DNA of 64,000 nucleotides from Kribbella solani (GTDB taxonomy: Bacteria > Actinomycetota > Actinomycetes > Propionibacteriales > Kribbellaceae): positions 3,100,001 through 3,164,000 of the forward strand of contig NZ_JACHNF010000001.1 in NCBI RefSeq assembly GCF_014205295.1, given 5' to 3'. The notes under the pieces are model-generated. The model had not been told where the DNA came from. It did not search any database and saw nothing but the letters and a program-made list of their open reading frames with translations. A program made the translations under genes and the position numbers. Of this stretch, positions 40-55,668 are shown one piece after another. Position 1 is the stretch's first letter, and every line of letters starts with the position of its first letter.

Positions 40-77
40 CGATCTTCCAACTCACCCACGATCCTCCAACTCACCAA
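40..77. repeat. 19-bp tandem duplication
   Basis: Two adjacent 19-bp units (40-58 and 59-77) agree at 17 of 19 positions and share the core TCCAACTCACC. The second unit runs into the last codons of the TetR gene. It looks like a small local duplication at the 3' end of that gene. No function is suggested. Confidence 0.7.
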
Positions 78-697
78 GGGATCGCGGCACCCGGTAGTAC
101 GGCCGACTCCAGGCGGATGCGTACCGCCTCGCGCGCGAACACGTACGTCGACTCGTCGTTGTGGAGGATCGACGACAGGTTCGCGGCCTCGTAGTACGCG
201 TTCAGGTCGAACGCGAGTTGCTTCGGATCGCCGGCCAGCTCGCCCTGTTCGATCGCCGCGGCGATGGTGGTTTCGATCAGGCCCATCCACTCCAGGTGTA
301 CGGCCGCGAGCATCTCCTGTACGGCGCCGGTGCGCGCGGAGTACTCGTGCGAGACCTTCTGGAAGAAACAGCCGCCCGGGAAGACGCGACGCTGCGAGTA
401 GTCCAGCCAGTACTGGCCGAGCGCCCACACCCGCCCGAGACCAGGCTCGACCTCGAACGCCGGAATCACCACGTTGTCCGCGTAGATCCGCCGCGCCGCG
501 CGGATTGTCGACAACTGCAGCTCTTCCTTCGACCCGAAGTGCGCGAACACCCCGCTCTTACTGATCCCGAGCTCCGCCGCAAGCCGCCCGATCGAAAGCC
601 CTTCCAGCCCATCCACCGACGCCACATCCACAGCCCGCCGCAACACCGCCCGCCGAGTCTGATCCCCCCGCACCAACCGCCCATCCACCTTCTCCAC
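71..697 (-). CDS. TetR/AcrR family transcriptional regulator
   Basis: A 208-residue DNA-binding repressor. The N-terminal TetR helix-turn-helix lies at about residues 15-62, with the recognition region ISKSGVFAHFGSKEEL at 45-60. The rest is the variable helical ligand-binding and dimerisation half. The start is GTG at 697. A TAGGAT -10 hexamer at 704-709 lies just upstream, so the transcript may be leaderless. The gene is divergent from an alpha/beta hydrolase whose promoter contains a TetR-type palindrome at 1222-1239, which makes the hydrolase its most likely target. More than 500 bp of repeats separate the two genes. The family call is secure; the effector is unknown. Confidence 0.9.
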   Translation of the reverse strand: MEKVDGRLVRGDQTRRAVLRRAVDVASVDGLEGLSIGRLAAELGISKSGVFAHFGSKEELQLSTIRAARRIYADNVVIPAFEVEPGLGRVWALGQYWLDYSQRRVFPGGCFFQKVSHEYSARTGAVQEMLAAVHLEWMGLIETTIAAAIEQGELAGDPKQLAFDLNAYYEAANLSSILHNDESTYVFAREAVRIRLESAVLPGAAIPW

Positions 698-1003
698 CCC
701 CCGATCCTAAACACCAACCCGCCCCCCACTCCCACTCCCACACACCCAGCCCCACGCCGACACGCCCACGCCCACGCCCACTCCCACGCCCGCCCGCACC
801 CCCACCGCACCCCCGCCCGCGCTCGTACGCCCGCCCGCGCTCGCACCCCTACCCGCGCTCGTACGCCCGCCCGCGCTCGTACGCCTACCCGCACGCGTAC
901 ACCCACCCGCGCTCGCACCCGATCCGCACACCCGCACCACACCCACGCCCACTCCCACTCCCCGCTCCGCCTCGCACCCACGCCCTCCCCTGGCCGAGCG
1001 CCA
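698..1003. repeat. C-rich intergenic DNA with an 18-bp minisatellite (six units)
   Basis: This gene-free stretch is strongly C-rich on the plus strand. Positions 724-810 consist of CCCACG/CCCACT hexamer-like repeats. Positions 816-923 are exactly six tandem 18-bp units (816, 834, 852, 870, 888, 906), each close to CCCGCGCTCGTACGCCCG. Long open frames cross it only because the repeat lacks stops; the resulting Arg/Pro/Thr strings are not credible proteins. Positions 936-970 return to the hexamer pattern. Confidence 0.85.
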
Positions 1004-1087
1004 TTTCAGGGGTTAACCACCGAACCTGTCCGTTCACCCCTCGCATCCGACGTGTTGACGGGCAATCTCGGTGGTTAACCCCTGAAA
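1004..1087. repeat. Dispersed GGTTAACC element, copy 1
   Basis: A perfect 20-bp inverted repeat has its left arm at 1004-1023 and its right arm at 1068-1087, separated by 44 bp. The arms contain GGTTAACC at 1011-1018 and 1073-1080, so the outer edges of the two octamers span 70 bp. Two further copies with the same 70-bp span occur at 29817-29886 and, in the opposite orientation, at 54703-54772. This is the most symmetrical copy. It could fold as a 20-bp stem or bind a protein at paired sites. I do not recognise it as a described family. Confidence 0.75.
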
Positions 1088-1194
1088 CGGCGGCAGTGCC
1101 AGGCGCGGTGGTGAGCGGGGAGGCCGCGACGCCGGCGGGGGGTGGACGGGGTTGTGGCTGACGGGGTGATGGGTTGTGGCTGGTGTGGGGGTGG

Positions 1195-1239
1195 TTGACG
1201 GGGTGGGGGTGGGAAACTAATAATACGACCGTTCGTATT
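1195..1239 (+). promoter_or_regulatory. Sigma-70-type promoter with TetR-type operator
   Basis: A -35 box TTGACG (1195-1200) is followed after 17 bp by a -10 TAATAA (1218-1223). The palindrome AATACGA-CCGT-TCGTATT (1222-1239) overlaps the -10 and would block RNA polymerase when bound. TACGA/TCGTA half-sites are typical of TetR-family operators, and a TetR gene lies upstream. The expected start of transcription is near 1231, about 35 nt before the hydrolase start codon. Confidence 0.65.
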
Positions 1240-1265
1240 GTTTGGTTCGGGTGGGAGGGGATGTT

Positions 1266-2133
1266 GTGCGGAAGCTCGTCAGTGTCGGGTTGCGGGCAAT
1301 CGGATTGTTGTCGCCGCGGGCCGGGGGGTGGGTCGCGTTTCGGTTGTGGCGGCGGCCGATGGCTCGGGGGCGGGTGCGGGGGGGCTGAGCAGGCGGTGCA
1401 CGAGGCGGCGCGGGTGGAGATTGTCGACGATGTGGTGACGTACGCCTGGGGTGACGGGGCGCGGCCGGTGCTGCTGGTGCATGGGTGGCGGTCGCGGGCG
1501 TCGCGGTTCGCGCCGTTCGTCGAGCGGTTGCTGGAGCTCGGGTACAGCCCGGTTTCGTACGACGCGCCCGCGCACGGCGACTCGGGCGGTGAGGTCGCGT
1601 CGATCCTCACGCATCAGGCGATCATTCGCGGGCTCGAGGAGCGGCACGGTCCGTTCGAGGCGGCGGTCGGGCATTCGCTCGGGGTGCTGTTCGCGTTGTA
1701 CGCGGTCCGGGAAGGTGTCGCGGCGAAACGGCTGGTGATGATCAGTGGGGTCGCGGACTTCGCGTATCTCGCGGATACGTTCTGCGCGGCGCTGGGGCTG
1801 GGGCCGAGGATCAACCGGGAGCTGCGGCGGTACATCGAGCGTGGGTACTTCGATGGTGATCGGGACATCTGGACCCGGTTCTCGGTCGGCACCGGGAAGA
1901 CCGAGTTGCTGGTGATCCACAACGACGAGGACGAGATCGTCGATCCGCGGCAGGCGCAGATCCTGCTCCGGAACTACGGTCCGCAGGCGCACTTCCTGCC
2001 GACGACCGGTCTGGGTCACCGCCGGATCCTCTCGGACCCGGCGGTGATGACCGAAGCCATCGCCTTCCTCCAGGACGCCGACCAGCTACAACCCGAGACC
2101 CCGCACCCAGAACGGAACCAGGTACCGGGCTAG
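1266..2133 (+). CDS. Alpha/beta hydrolase with an apparent N-terminal frameshift
   Basis: The body from about 1396 to 2133 encodes an alpha/beta hydrolase: an oxyanion-loop HGW (VLLVHGW), nucleophile elbow GHSLG, a late Asp (NDEDEIVD) and a catalytic His in GLGHRRIL. The natural start appears to be GTG at 1266, 5 nt after the purine-rich site GGGAGGGG. From there the frame reads VRKLVSVGLRAIGLLSP and continues plausibly to VRG. It then hits a stop, because a run of seven Gs (1378-1384) throws it out of frame with the body. Removing one G joins the two parts into ...RVRGAEQAVHEAARVE. The extra base may be a sequencing error, a disabling mutation or a slippage site. Translation could also begin at GTG 1396, keeping the whole catalytic domain. 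Confidence 0.75.
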
Positions 2134-2280
2134 GAGCCGGACCAGCAGCAGAACAACCAGCCGCTTGCGCGCGAACTGCTCCCCTCAGGTGCACGACGCG
2201 GCGAGCGGCGCAGTCAGCCGGCGGCCGATTCAGACGCGCGCGGTCCGGCGGAGTGGAGGTGTGAGCGGGGATGGCGGGGC

Positions 2281-2356
2281 GGGTTCTCCACTGCTGTTGA
2301 GGGTTGTCTACTGACATGCGGGTGGAGAACCCACAAGACGGGTGGATATCCACCCG
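2281..2356. terminator. Convergent-gene spacer with two stem-loops
   Basis: The spacer 2134-2447 separates the convergent hydrolase and murA-like genes. It holds an 11-bp perfect inverted repeat (GGGTTCTCCAC at 2281-2291, GTGGAGAACCC at 2322-2332) and a perfect 18-bp palindrome CGGGTGGATATCCACCCG (2339-2356). Neither is followed by a T run. They are candidates for a bidirectional terminator. I see nothing else in the spacer. Confidence 0.45.
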
Positions 2357-2447
2357 CGCCAGGTTGGGGCCAGCGCCGCCCGGCGTCGACGGCCAGCGTT
2401 GGTGACTCGGGTTGACGGCCGAGAGTGGTGGCTTGGGTTGGCTGTTG

Positions 2448-3974
2448 TCAGATGTCGCGGAAGGTTTCGATCTGGGCACCTAGGGAGTTCAGGCGGGCGG
2501 CCAGGTCTTCGTAGCCTCGGTTGATGACGTAGACGCTGCGGAGTACGGAGGTGCCCTTGGCGGCCATCATTGCGATCAGGGTGACGACGGCGGGGCGTAA
2601 CGCGGGTGGGCACATCATTTCGGTGCCGGAGAAGTGGGTCGGGCCTTCGACCATGACGCGGTGCGGGTCGAGCAGTTTGACCCGGCCGCCGAGTTTGTTC
2701 AGGTCGGTCAGGTAGATCGCGCGGTTCTCGTACACCCAGTCGTGGATCAGCGTCTGGCCGGTCGCGGTGGCGGCGATCGCGGCGAAGAACGGGAGGTTGT
2801 CCAGGTTGAGGCCCGGGAACGGCATCGGGTGGATCTTGTCGATCGGCGCGTGCAGCTTGGACGGCCGGGTGGTGAGGTCGACCAGCCGGGTGCGGCCGTT
2901 CTCGGCCAGGTACTCGGGGCTGCGGTCGTAGTCCAGACCCATCTCCTCGAGTACCGCGAGCTCGATTTCGAGGAACTCGACCGGCGCCCGCCGGATGGTC
3001 AGCTCGGACTTGGTGACGATCGCCGCGGTCAGCAGGCTCATCGCCTCGATCGGGTCCTCGGACGGCGCGTAGTCGACGTCCACGTCGATGTCGGCCTTGC
3101 CGTGTACGGTCAGCGACGTCGTACCGATGCCGTCGATCTTCACCCCGAGCAGATCGAGGTAGAAGCAGAGGTCCTGGACCATGTAGTTGGGGCTGGCGTT
3201 CCGGATCACGGTGACGCCGTCGTGCCGGGCCGCGGCCATGATCGCGTTCTCGGTCACGGTGTCGCCGCGTTCGGTCAGGACGATCGGCTTGCCCGGCGTG
3301 ATCGTCCGGTTCACCAGCGCGTGGTACTGCCCGCCGGTCGCCTTCACGGACAGCCCGAACGGGCGGAGCGCGGTCATGTGCGGCTCGACCGTCCGCGTAC
3401 CCAGATCGCAACCACCGGCGTACGGGAGCTCGAACGCATCCTCGCGGTGCAGCAGCGGACCCAGGAACATGATGATGGAGCGCGTACGCCCGGCCGCCTC
3501 GGCGTCCATCGAGCTGAGGTCAAGCCGGGCCGGCGGCACGATCTCGAGGTCACCGGCGTCGTTCAGCCAGGTGGTCTTCACGCCGATCGAGTTGAGTACT
3601 TCGAGCAGGCGGTTGACCTCTTCGATCCGCGCGACCTTCCGGAGCGTGGTCCGGCCCTTGTTCAGCAGCGAGGCGCAGAGCAGCGCGACGCCGGCGTTCT
3701 TGCTGGACTTGACGTCGATGGAACCGGAAAGCTGGCGGCCACCGGCGACGCGGAGGTGGACCGGACCGCCACCGAGAGAGACAATTTCGGAGTCGAGCGC
3801 CTCGCCGATCCGGGCGAGCATCTCGAGGGTGAGGTTCTGATGACCCTTCTCGATCCTGTTCACCGCACTCTGGCTGGTGTTCAGTACTTCCGCGAGCTGC
3901 GTCTGTGTCCAGCCGCGATGCTTGCGGGCGTCCCGGATGAGGTTTCCGATCCGGCTCAGGTAGTCATCACTCAT
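2448..3974 (-). CDS. murA: HTH-fused UDP-N-acetylglucosamine 1-carboxyvinyltransferase (MurA-like)
   Basis: A 508-residue protein with an XRE-type helix-turn-helix at about residues 7-62 (TQTQLAEVLNTSQSAVNRIE) fused to a full MurA fold at about 72-505. MurA transfers enolpyruvate from PEP to UDP-GlcNAc in the first committed step of peptidoglycan synthesis. The substrate-binding KSSKNA motif is at 89-94 and the catalytic-loop Cys is kept at 189 (GGCDLGTR). A C-terminal Arg is kept in NRGYEDL. HTH-MurA proteins occur in actinobacteria beside a stand-alone MurA, so this one may act in regulation or as a second enzyme. The DNA-binding domain and a palindrome 11 bp upstream suggest that it controls its own transcription. 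Confidence 0.9.
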   Translation of the reverse strand: MSDDYLSRIGNLIRDARKHRGWTQTQLAEVLNTSQSAVNRIEKGHQNLTLEMLARIGEALDSEIVSLGGGPVHLRVAGGRQLSGSIDVKSSKNAGVALLCASLLNKGRTTLRKVARIEEVNRLLEVLNSIGVKTTWLNDAGDLEIVPPARLDLSSMDAEAAGRTRSIIMFLGPLLHREDAFELPYAGGCDLGTRTVEPHMTALRPFGLSVKATGGQYHALVNRTITPGKPIVLTERGDTVTENAIMAAARHDGVTVIRNASPNYMVQDLCFYLDLLGVKIDGIGTTSLTVHGKADIDVDVDYAPSEDPIEAMSLLTAAIVTKSELTIRRAPVEFLEIELAVLEEMGLDYDRSPEYLAENGRTRLVDLTTRPSKLHAPIDKIHPMPFPGLNLDNLPFFAAIAATATGQTLIHDWVYENRAIYLTDLNKLGGRVKLLDPHRVMVEGPTHFSGTEMMCPPALRPAVVTLIAMMAAKGTSVLRSVYVINRGYEDLAARLNSLGAQIETFRDI

Positions 3975-4091: not shown

Positions 4092-4261
4092 CTAGGGTAT
4101 GTCTGGCAACTCCGCGCCGTAGCGAGGAGGTGCTCGGCGCGGTAGCTCGGCGCGCGGGAGGGAAGGCGTCGATGTGGGTTCATCGTTGCTTTTCCTCCCG
4201 TGCGGCGAGGTGCCGTGCCGAGTGCCCCGCAGTAGGCGGGGAGTTGCCAGGCATGCCCTAG
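4092..4261. mobile_element. 170-bp snapback (MITE-like) palindromic element
   Basis: The ends are 22-bp inverted repeats with two mismatches (4092-4113 and 4240-4261, core CTGGCAACTCC). Complementarity continues inwards: the whole element consists of two arms of roughly 80 nt around a short loop at about 4176-4181. It occupies most of the 329-bp spacer between the HTH-MurA gene and the gene at 4304, and ends 42 bp before that gene's start codon. The structure suggests a non-autonomous miniature transposable element or a long RNA hairpin. No clear target-site duplication and no second copy are visible in this window. Confidence 0.6.
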
Positions 4262-4303: not shown

Positions 4304-5515
4304 ATGCCCGACGACACCTCCGCTGCGGTGGTCAACGAGTTCGAAGCGGAGTCGTGGCCCTTGGATGCGGCCGCGGACAGTCTGCATCAGGTGATCGAGG
4401 GGTTCCACAACGGCGACACCCGGCCGCTGGTGATCGGCGACGGCGACCAGCCGGTGCTGGTGGTGCTGGCGATCGCCGACCTGGCCGACTTCCGGGCCCG
4501 GATCGCGGAGCTGCTCGGCAACCCGGTCGACGCCGGCTGGCTGCGGTACTACCTGCGGTCGAACTTCGACATGAGCTCGGAGCGGCTGGTCGAGCTGCTC
4601 GGTGTCGACGCCGATCACGGCTTGTCGTCGCTGGCCAGCCAGGTGAACGTCGAACAGGCCGCGACCCTGATGCCGGACCACGTCCGCCGCACCGAAGCCG
4701 GCGGCAACCCGCTGATGCTGATCGGCGACGGCACGATGGCGACCGCGGCGCTGCTCGCGTTCCAGGCCTTCCAGGTGCTGGTCGCGCTGGAGGGCAGCGG
4801 CAAGGGCGAGGACGACTCCTGCGCGCACGACGACGAGGAGAAGCCGACCACGCCGCTCGAGGTGCTGGCCGAGCGGATCGGTCCGGTCTCGACGCAGCTG
4901 GTCGCGCAGCTCAACGCCGGCCGCGAGCCGGGCCTTCCGCGCTACGAGTTGCACTTCGAGGACGACCTGATCGAGCACCTCCGCGACCTGGAGGCGCGCG
5001 CCCAGAAGACCCCGGGCGGCGGCGCGTACGACGAATTGAACGGACTGCTCCACCAGTTCGACCAGATGCGCAGCGGTCTCGTCGAGGCGGAGGTCGACGA
5101 ACCGGACGAGGCCCCGTACCTGGAAGGGAGCGACCTGAGGGCAGCGATGCCGGACATCCGGGACAGCTTCCGCGACGGCGCCGACGACCCGTACCTGATC
5201 GGCCGGGACGGGCATCCGGTGGCCGGCCTCATCTCGTACGACTTGTACGAGGAGTTGCAGAAGGTGTCGGTCGAGCTGAACGGCACTGACGAAGCGCCCG
5301 TCCTGCCGCTCCCCCAGCCGCAGTGGGAGGACGGCCCGCGGCTGCTCTCGTTCGAGCTAGCGCTCGAGATGTGCGAGGCGGTCATCGAGGACCTCACCCG
5401 CGGCGAGGCCTCGATGCTGTTCATCGCCGACGAGGACGACGAGCCCGAGCTGGTACTGGCACCACTCGTCTGGCTCTGGGCGTACGTCGACCACCTGAAC
5501 CTCGAAACCGCCTGA
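4304..5515 (+). CDS. Hypothetical protein with four Phd/YefM-like modules
   Basis: I do not recognise a named family for this 403-residue acidic cytoplasmic protein. It contains four stretches resembling the core of Phd/YefM antitoxins (a short helix, then hydrophobic strand - charged turn with Gly or Asp - hydrophobic strand - helix). They lie near residues 20-72 (PLVIGDGDQPVLVVLAIADL), 112-163 (LMLIGDGTMATAALLAF), 274-325 (YLIGRDGHPVAGLISYDLYE) and 349-400 (MLFIADEDDEPELVLAPLVW). Helical linkers of 40 to 110 residues separate them. No toxin gene lies next to it. A purine-rich GGAGAGGA site precedes the ATG. Its role is unknown; the module reading is my inference from the pattern. Confidence 0.7.
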   Translation: MPDDTSAAVVNEFEAESWPLDAAADSLHQVIEGFHNGDTRPLVIGDGDQPVLVVLAIADLADFRARIAELLGNPVDAGWLRYYLRSNFDMSSERLVELLGVDADHGLSSLASQVNVEQAATLMPDHVRRTEAGGNPLMLIGDGTMATAALLAFQAFQVLVALEGSGKGEDDSCAHDDEEKPTTPLEVLAERIGPVSTQLVAQLNAGREPGLPRYELHFEDDLIEHLRDLEARAQKTPGGGAYDELNGLLHQFDQMRSGLVEAEVDEPDEAPYLEGSDLRAAMPDIRDSFRDGADDPYLIGRDGHPVAGLISYDLYEELQKVSVELNGTDEAPVLPLPQPQWEDGPRLLSFELALEMCEAVIEDLTRGEASMLFIADEDDEPELVLAPLVWLWAYVDHLNLETA

Positions 5516-29728: not shown

Positions 29729-29807
29729 TCCAATGCCGACAAAGTTCCCCCGAATTGCCCCATCAGGTCAAGAGATCAGCCGCGATTCGATCACCCACCC
29801 CCAGAAC

Positions 29808-29905
29808 CATTTCAGCGGTGAACCTCCGCCCTCGCCCCTTCACCACCCGCACCCAACTGGTGAAGGGGTGCGCCGGGACGTTAACCCCCCAAATGGCAGC
29901 AGCCG
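29808..29905. repeat. Dispersed GGTTAACC element, copy 2
   Basis: The 70-bp core runs from GGTGAACC (29817-29824) to CGTTAACC (29879-29886). It is the same length as copies 1 and 3 and shares the internal TTCAC and CGCA blocks. The flanks also match copy 1: CCATTTCAG on the left and a purine-rich ATGGCAGCAG on the right, compared with ACGGCGGCAG. Inside is an 11-bp hairpin CCCCTTCACCA / TGGTGAAGGGG. The element lies between two minus-strand genes. Confidence 0.65.
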
Positions 29906-29924: not shown

Positions 29925-30509
29925 TCAGGGGTGGAGGGTCGGGTGGTAGATGAGTTCTTGGATGTTGTGGTCGAGGGTTCGGGAGTCGATGAGTTCCAGG
30001 TCGTAGTCGGCGGCTCCGTGGAAGATCGGGTCGGCGCCGGTGCGGCCGGTGAGGACCGGGAAGATGGTGACCTGGAGGCGGTCGACGAGGCCCGCGGACA
30101 TCAGGGCGCGGTTCAGGGACAGGCTGCCGTGGGAGCGGAGCGGGACGTCGGATTCCTGCTTCAGGCGGGTGACGATCTCCACCGCGTCGCCGGACTCGAG
30201 CGTGGCGTTCGACCAGGTCAGTGGGGCTGACAACGTACTGGAGACGACGGTGATCGGCATCGTCATCATCCGGGTGTTGACCGGGTCCGCGTACGCGGAA
30301 TCCGCCGGCGACGGGCCGAGGATTTCGACGAACTGCCGGTAGGTGTTGGCGCCGAGGACCAGGCGCTGGTCCTCGGACAGGGCAGCCAGGCGGCGGTCGA
30401 GGAACTCGGGGCCCTGTTTGCCCCAGTAACCGCCCCAGTCACCGGGCTCGTCGTACGAGCCGAAGCCGTCCAGCGTGCAGAAGATGTCGAAGGTGTACAG
30501 CGCGGTCAT
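29925..30509 (-). CDS. Dihydrofolate reductase family protein (RibD C-terminal type)
   Basis: A 194-residue reductase-fold protein of the DHFR/RibD_C group common in actinomycetes. It shows the N-terminal strand and loop (FCTLDGFGSYDEP), LVLGANTYRQF, the NADPH-loop-like SHGSLSLNRALMSAGLVD and the C-terminal FPVLTGRTGADPIF. These proteins are distinct from folate-pathway DHFR and their substrates are mostly unknown. ATG 30509 is preceded by an AAGGAG site. Confidence 0.88.
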   Translation of the reverse strand: MTALYTFDIFCTLDGFGSYDEPGDWGGYWGKQGPEFLDRRLAALSEDQRLVLGANTYRQFVEILGPSPADSAYADPVNTRMMTMPITVVSSTLSAPLTWSNATLESGDAVEIVTRLKQESDVPLRSHGSLSLNRALMSAGLVDRLQVTIFPVLTGRTGADPIFHGAADYDLELIDSRTLDHNIQELIYHPTLHP

Positions 30510-30552
30510 GATGAACTCCTTGAGATCCGGTTACCAGTGCAACGAACAGACC

Positions 30553-30640
30553 GCACCGGAACCGACAAACGACCGGCGGTAGCTCGGCGCCGTTGCACCG
30601 GAACCGACAAACGACCGGCGGTAGCTCGGCGCCGCACCGG
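30553..30640. repeat. 42/39-bp tandem repeat
   Basis: A unit beginning GCACCGGAACCGACAAACG starts at 30553 and 30595. A third partial copy begins at 30634. The second unit lacks three bases. It fills the 144-bp gap between the DHFR-family gene and dusB. No function is evident. Confidence 0.8.
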
Positions 30641-30653
30641 AACCGACAGGAGA

Positions 30654-54464: not shown

Positions 54465-54903
54465 GGGCGGTCAGGTTTAGTCGACCCAGGTGGACACCAC
54501 GAGCGACCGCGCAGGGCGACACCACGGGCGGCTGTGCAGGCGGACACCACGGATGGCTGCGTAGGTGATGGTGCGGCGCGGGTTGATGCCACGGGCAGCC
54601 GGGTGTGCGGCAGGCTGGGATCGTTGCCGGTGATGTGGCCAGTTCGAGCGGGTTGAGATCCGGTAGGCGGCGCTGTTGCTCCGCGAGCAAGGGCAGTTGG
54701 GTGGTTAACCACCGGGTTTGCTCGTTCGCGAGCGGGATGCGGCTTGTGAAGGGTCCTGTTCGCAGGTTAACCGCCCATGTTGCCGTCCGGAGCCGCGTCG
54801 CGAGCACGAGTGCGGGTGCGGGTGCGGGGGTTCAGCTGTGTGTTGGGGGGGTGGGGGCCGTGCAGTCGGGGTGGCGCTGCTCCCAGAATCGGCCAAGGGG
54901 TGG
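54465..54903. repeat. Gene-free stretch with a 25-bp tandem repeat and G-rich DNA
   Basis: This 439-bp space lies between the secreted protein gene and convergent recO. GACACCAC recurs at 54493, 54518 and 54543, the marks of three 25-bp tandem units. The dispersed GGTTAACC element follows at 54703-54772. Positions 54810-54880 are G-rich (GCGGGTGCGGGTGCGGGG). No gene is supported. Confidence 0.7.
54691..54784. repeat. Dispersed GGTTAACC element, copy 3 (inverted)
   Basis: Two GGTTAACC octamers (54703-54710 and 54765-54772) again span exactly 70 bp. Read on the minus strand the interior shares CGAAC, TTCAC, CGCATCC and CGGTGGTTAACC with copy 1 at the same offsets. The ends pair as a 12-bp stem with one mismatch. 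Inside, GCTCG-TTCG-CGAGC forms a small tetraloop hairpin. It lies in the gap between two convergent genes. Confidence 0.7.
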
Positions 54904-55668
54904 TTAGGCGGATTGGGGGTCGCGGGTGGGGGTATTGGGGGTGAGGTCTAGATGGGGGAAGGAACGTAGTTGGTTGTCTTGGTGGTAGGTGAAGAAGGCG
55001 GCGATGAGGCCGGTGGATTCTCGGCGGGTTTTGGGGTCGGCTTGGGTGGCGGCCGGCCAGTTGCCGGTGAGGAGGGCGGCGAGGTGGGTGACTGTGGCTT
55101 GGGCGGGCATGGCTGAGGCGGGTGGGCGGCAGGAGGTGCAGACCATGCCGCCGGAGGCGGGGTTGAAGGCTCGGTGCGGGCCTGGTTCGCCGCAGCGGGC
55201 GCAGTCGTCGAAAGAGGGCGCGTACCCGGCGATCGCCAGCGAGCGGAGCAGGAACGCGTCGAGGACCAGGGACGGTTCGCGTTCGCCGGTGGACAGGACG
55301 CGGAGCGCGCCGGCCAGCAGGAGGTGCTGCTGGGTGGCGGGTTCCTTCTCCTCGACGACCAGGCGGTCGGCGGTTTCCAGCAGGACGGTGCCGGCCGTGT
55401 ACCGGGCGTAGTCGCCGACGATCCCCTCACCGTACGCCGCGATCGACTCCGCCTGCGTGACGACGTCGAGCGTACGGCCGGTCGCGAGCTGCAGGTCGAC
55501 GTGACTGAACGGCTCCAGCCGGGCGCCGAACCGGGACGACGTACGCCGGACGCCTTTCGCGACCGCACGGACCTTCCCGTGCGCGCGAGTCAGCAGCGTG
55601 GCGATCCGGTCCGCCTCACCCAGCTTCTGGGTACGCAACACGATCGCCTGATCCCGGTAGAGCGGCAC
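54904..55668 (-). CDS. recO: DNA repair protein RecO
   Basis: A 254-residue recombination mediator that loads RecA at gaps with RecR. It shows the N-terminal OB-fold (LYRDQAIVLRTQKLGEADRIATLLTR), GVRRTSSRFGARLEPFSHVDLQL, and a zinc-finger set with CARCGEPG and CTSCRPP. GTG 55668 gives the usual start. It is convergent with the secreted protein gene and precedes no uppS here. Confidence 0.95.
   Translation of the reverse strand: MPLYRDQAIVLRTQKLGEADRIATLLTRAHGKVRAVAKGVRRTSSRFGARLEPFSHVDLQLATGRTLDVVTQAESIAAYGEGIVGDYARYTAGTVLLETADRLVVEEKEPATQQHLLLAGALRVLSTGEREPSLVLDAFLLRSLAIAGYAPSFDDCARCGEPGPHRAFNPASGGMVCTSCRPPASAMPAQATVTHLAALLTGNWPAATQADPKTRRESTGLIAAFFTYHQDNQLRSFPHLDLTPNTPTRDPQSA

Follow-up and report, generated by a model that had tools for sequence, protein, structure and literature searches.

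A dispersed family of 90-bp palindromes in Kribbella, REPIN-like in anatomy yet RAYT-free and predicted to end transcription from both directions at gene 3' ends

In this study, we asked what the palindromic repeats are that lie between genes in a 64,000-nucleotide stretch of the Kribbella solani genome (hereafter the window), and what role they may have. The original prediction had described three copies running exactly 70 bp between the outer edges of paired octamers (1011-1080, 29817-29886 and 54703-54772), and all three were re-found at that spacing, as were the perfect 20-bp arms of the first (1004-1023 and 1068-1087), which are visible in both sequence and fold. The octamer spacing stands, but the element itself is longer, a 90-bp block (CCATTT...AAATGG) that adds 10 bp on each side, and the three copies in the window are joined by a fourth of another subfamily (Table 1). 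All four are intergenic, as had been claimed for the three, by our own gene calls, which came from a simple codon-usage script and may be wrong for individual neighbours. The best explanation that we can offer is a family that is REPIN-like in anatomy yet RAYT-free, whose copies are predicted, from sequence and with a probability of roughly 0.55, to be bidirectional transcription terminators or insulators at gene 3' ends.

Table 1. Family members in the window, with their parts, flanks and neighbouring genes (R1 and R2, covariance models described in the text).
Feature	Position	Strand	Remarks
Copy 1, subfamily A	1001-1090	.	90-bp triple-dyad quasi-palindrome; R1 84 bits, R2 74 bits; fold z -10
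Copy 1, neighbouring TetR-type gene	71-625	-	Pfam
Copy 1, neighbouring alpha/beta hydrolase gene	1396-2133	+	Pfam
Copy 1, outer octamer GGTTAACC	1011-1018	.	alignment columns 11-18
Copy 1, inner octamer CGTTCACC	1031-1038	.	alignment columns 31-38
Copy 1, mirror inner octamer, degenerate TGTTGACG	1053-1060	.	columns 53-60
Copy 1, mirror outer octamer GGTTAACC	1073-1080	.	columns 73-80
Copy 1, left flank	851-1000	.	C-rich side of local GC-skew inversion
Copy 1, right flank	1091-1240	.	G-rich side of local GC-skew inversion
Copy 4, subfamily B	2272-2361	.	quasi-palindrome scan of window; R2 65 bits; outer GGTTCTCC / GGATATCC; in convergent spacer between genes 1396-2133 (+) and 2448-3974 (-)
Copy 2, subfamily A	29807-29896	.	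R1 71 bits
Copy 2, neighbouring RibD_C-domain gene	29925-30509	-	copy lies 28 bp beyond its 3' end; gene calls and Pfam
Copy 3, subfamily A, degenerate	54693-54782	.	R1 57 bits
Copy 3, neighbouring recO	54904-55668	-	copy lies 121 bp beyond its 3' end; gene calls and Pfam

The element is composed of three dyads of ~28, 34 and 28 bp, with centres spaced 31-31.5 bp, which jointly form one long quasi-palindrome, and conservation drops outside the 90-bp block. Four octamers lie within it in fixed register, their centres spaced 20, 22 (23 in the 91-bp dialects) and 20 bp. The subfamily A consensus reads CCATTTSAGN-GGTTAACC-...-GCCCSTTCACC-...-CGCATGCG in its left part and continues as ...-GGTGAASGGGC-...-GGTTAACC-NCTSAAATGG. 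When 68 diverse copies are compared, the outer octamers keep their GGNNNNCC frame and the inner ones their TT/AA with hardly any variation, and almost all else drifts; despite this drift between species and subfamilies, the three dyads, the four octamers in register and the length of 90 or 91 bp are kept. The register is exact in 72 of 75 own-genome loci, the remaining three comprising two that are interrupted by an insertion sequence (IS) and one with a 1-bp shift. Mean identity among copies is 66%, and constant length at such identity suggests selection, not recent copying; the earlier description of a constant length with a variable interior holds. Outer and inner octamers also tend to change together, an outer GGTTAACC or GGTTCACC going with an inner STTCACC in subfamily A, an outer GGATATCC or GGTTCTCC with an inner GGTTCTCC in subfamily B, and an outer GGCTGGCC with an inner GGTTGGCC in G068. 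The paired-octamer pattern gives 162 matches per strand across the 7.85 Mb of the genome, compared with 40 from a reversed control, and the fold z-scores of the copies range from -10.3 to -2.9.

A covariance-model search, which the original prediction had proposed, was undertaken with a model built on 53 copies (R1) and a broader one (R2). R1 finds ~75 loci of the first subfamily (A) in the own genome and has matches in 21 of 24 sampled same-genus genomes and in none of 14 other genomes of the order. The second subfamily (B) has ~25-35 copies or more in the own genome, an unbiased 400-kb sample of which held seven family members, corresponding to ~140 genome-wide. With R2, the family was detected in 23 of 25 Kribbella genomes (own included), with a weak match in one genome of another family, and when more of the order was sampled 6 of 21 genera matched, own genus included, although single weak matches among these may be chance. 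Copy number per species varies from none detected to more than 50. One genome from another genus of the order has five loci, and the loci in two Nocardioidaceae-like genera have the identical 90-bp layout in quite different sequence, being near-perfect palindromes (outer 28-bp and inner 34-bp). A pattern scan of a broad collection of genome contigs, which may omit records near the own genome, gave 10 matches, none of them actinobacterial and all judged chance, and no match was found among the viral contigs, phages and plasmids searched. The family is apparently undescribed, as the literature searched, with incomplete coverage, yielded no description of it and nothing on palindromic repeats of Kribbella.

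Copies are found in spacers, near stop codons, and several overlap the stop codon. In the own genome (G000), 36 of 98 lie between convergent genes compared with 12% in a random set of 149 spacers no shorter than 90 bp (odds ratio 4.2, p 7e-6), and 12 of 98 between divergent genes compared with 36% (p 3e-5). The bias recurs in relatives, where 38 of 73 copies (52%) are convergent and two divergent, and in the Nocardioidaceae-like genomes, where the corresponding counts are 9 and 0 of 15 and the stop codon lies at a median of 18-87 bp. No dominant family was apparent among the neighbouring genes. At least six of ~21 loci in G010 are in spacers where G000 also has a copy, as are several in G018 and G019, and the aligned copies from shared spacers are often of different dialects. 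For eight G019 loci that were compared, relatives have a copy of a different dialect, another hairpin or an ordinary-looking terminator, or no hairpin, which indicates that a site can outlast the sequence occupying it, and that gain or loss of copies has occurred at some sites. One convergent spacer that holds a G019 element contains different long inverted repeats, unrelated to the family, in the own genome (L210) and in G016 (L213).

RNAalifold applied to 53 copies returned just six pairs, and pairs were then counted along the dyad axis. Along the axis of the whole palindrome, double changes occur in 31 of 36 pairs and in 427 cells against 160 in shuffles, counts that are inflated by shared ancestry, and sliding one side by 1 to 3 columns lowered the paired cells by 34-46 percentage points. 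Subfamily A shows the excess on that axis alone (summed z 48; the two local palindromes score -3 and -2), and local hairpins were therefore rejected as its covarying structure; across dialects the local palindromes also exceed chance, more weakly than the global pairing. Hardly any pairing is seen at arm positions 11-16. In transcript orientation G-U is not favoured over A-C (71 versus 81), and the figures for tandem copies alone (65 versus 49) do not differ significantly by our own estimate, although, with both strands in use, a missing G-U preference is evidence neither for nor against RNA pairing. Rfam had nothing at gathering score in the window and gave only sub-threshold, hairpin-like matches near copies. 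The original prediction, that this is not a random repeat, would have been at odds with three loci only, no covariation and no placement bias; what we found instead were ~140 copies, relatives that carry the family, covariation and biased placement.

On the forward strand, copies have a C-rich flank to the left and a G-rich one to the right, with a GC skew of about -0.3 and +0.3 over 150-200 bp, alike in tandem, convergent and divergent spacers, whereas spacers without copies have a skew near zero. The inversion is present in every same-genus genome that was looked at closely and is weak at the Nocardioidaceae-like loci. For copy 1 the switch score is 113 (150 bp each side), against a background mean of 0 and standard deviation of 17.8. 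Adjoining genes share the C skew over their last 150 bp (whole-segment skew, p 2e-12), most strongly at third codon positions (-0.50 versus -0.15). Consequently, RNA entering a copy from either side would be C-rich and G-poor. Since 37 of 41 strong skew inversions in the sample are without a family member, the element need not be what produces the inversion, and copies may instead have landed, or been retained, where an inversion already existed. Examples of strong inversions without a copy, from 400 kb of the own genome sampled at random, are at L281 17023 and L280 14274. In the window, a C-rich low-complexity array lies left of copy 1 (~800-1000) and a G-rich one right of it (1091-1220), and arrays of this kind are also found beside other copies (L006, L191, L202).

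The position of the copies, their symmetry and constant size, the C-rich approach from both sides and the alternative hairpins in spacers elsewhere all support a two-way transcription end. Each copy would mark where transcription arriving from either direction ends, and would enforce that end, possibly by one of two routes. In the first, the C-rich, G-poor RNA arriving from either side, of the kind that Rho prefers, would be followed by the long hairpin, which would define and protect the 3' end; in the second, a protein on the phased octamers would block the polymerase. We infer that the copies spread within genomes by some REPIN-like copying process and were kept where useful. Comparable features in bidirectional terminators between convergent genes are position, palindromy, possible use of both strands and the presence of other hairpins in orthologous spacers. 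Unlike that general class of unrelated hairpins, this is a dispersed, related family of fixed length with phased octamers, and it lacks the U-tract that follows the GC-rich hairpin of an intrinsic terminator, its flanks being 65-79% GC with no T-run. Several points argue against a two-way end, the missing U-tract and the scarce pairing at arm positions 11-16 among them: the skew is also found around tandem and divergent copies, which have less evident need of termination on both sides; purging from promoters would leave a selfish element at 3' ends as well; and a plain terminator hairpin needs neither constant length nor phased octamers. If the two-way reading is true, the way in which these high-GC bacteria terminate transcripts of convergent genes is opened to direct experiment, the ~140 copies per genome serving as natural replicates and the dialects as existing variants, and a REPIN-like population maintained without a RAYT would bear on the spread of palindromic repeats and on how they come to be of use. 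A possible use is as compact two-way insulators for actinomycete engineering.

Rather unlikely, in our view, is that the copies are a selfish REPIN-like population, its outer dyads recognised by some transposase, with no host function and a 3'-end bias produced by purging elsewhere. REPINs have conserved inverted ends around a hairpin spacer of constant length, show compensatory changes, and occur in clusters and in several flavours within a genome (PMC3116915), an anatomy that fits these copies well. Copies chained at a 63-bp step, the range of copy number between species, the orthologous spacers without a copy and the sub-populations that have outer and inner motifs in common, as if copied whole, can all be read the same way. 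Nevertheless, the extragenic distribution of REPINs is reported to be random (PMC3116915), which that of these copies is not, and the exact length despite strong divergence and the many positions common to several species also speak against such a population. In addition, no Y1 transposase (RAYT, PF01797) was found in any of 39 genomes, including all 25 of Kribbella with the own among them, by a search that did find it in E. coli and four other control genomes. Parent IS or solo half-units were essentially absent (the outer-arm pattern has 83 matches per strand, and nearly all of the matches listed lie within full copies), and flanks gave no clear excess of matches indicative of target-site duplication at any boundary offset (k 2-12).

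The REP-like character that had been suggested holds as a likeness, and fails as membership of the REP/REPIN class as there is no RAYT in the genus. In common with REPINs and BIMEs, the REP doublets with RAYT of Pseudomonas and E. coli (PMC3116915, PMC8266576), the family has inverted ends, a length-constrained hairpin and compensatory changes, is intergenic, occurs in several flavours per genome and in clusters, and can adopt alternative single-hairpin or clover folds. It differs from them in being built around GGNNNNCC octamers, a strong preference for 3' ends and convergent spacers, an exact length of 90/91 bp and no GTAG-type block that we noticed at its foot, the columns outside CCATTT..AAATGG being unconserved. 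Among other palindromic repeats, the ERIC or IRU elements of enterobacteria are ~127 bp long, with one conserved core sequence and no known transposase. The Kribbella family likewise forms large, imperfect palindromes that hardly vary in size, lies in transcribed spacers and has no known transposase; it differs in its 90-91 bp, three dyads, many dialects and other phylum, and is set apart from ERIC by its size.

A more far-reaching idea, which we consider unlikely, is that the copies represent a new class of bidirectional transcription boundary, in which phased octamers in an array of fixed length are bound by a putative protein whose specificity shifted repeatedly, dozens of sites per genome switching dialect together while dyad symmetry, spacing and 3'-end position were kept across two actinobacterial families. 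Quite doubtful is the more general proposal that the four octamers are an array on one helical face for a putative sequence-specific DNA-binding protein (a roadblock, insulator or chromosome organiser), with dialects that track changes in the protein. The fixed register, the tendency of outer and inner octamers to change together, the lack of G-U preference and the length kept across two families are consistent with it; however, no candidate protein was found, binding does not require arm-to-arm compensation at weakly conserved positions, and octamer co-change can be subfamily inheritance. That the copies are a MITE of a resident IS, decaying neutrally, is highly improbable, for although they are short, palindromic, dispersed and intergenic, neither a clear target duplication nor an IS with matching ends was found, their length is constant at 66% identity with octamer frames conserved across families, and the one IS associated with them, of IS30 type, sits inside as an invader.

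That IS (1.29-1.30 kb, HTH_38 and rve domains, ends GGCGGGGTCCAGTGGTC) was observed inside four own-genome copies (L061, L142, L143 and L284), at one fixed boundary (near columns 28-31 of the element or their mirror) in both subfamilies, and at L040 its end adjoins an outer arm. It looks like an IS that targets the palindrome family. IS1397 and IS621 are insertion sequences that target REP palindromes, and entry at one fixed point is a likeness of the invader, not of the element. Elsewhere in the window, the gene at 2448-3974 (-) encodes an EPSP-synthase/MurA-type protein with a helix-turn-helix domain at its N-terminus, and the divergent spacer between it and the gene at 4304-5515 (+) contains another strong quasi-palindrome (4131-4222, 33 of 45 pairs), which is unrelated to the family. 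A repeated unit with CACCGGAACCGACAAACGACCGGCGGTAGCTCGGCGCCG lies between two genes at ~30549-30641 and has GGTAGCTCGGCGC in common with the hairpin near 4177.
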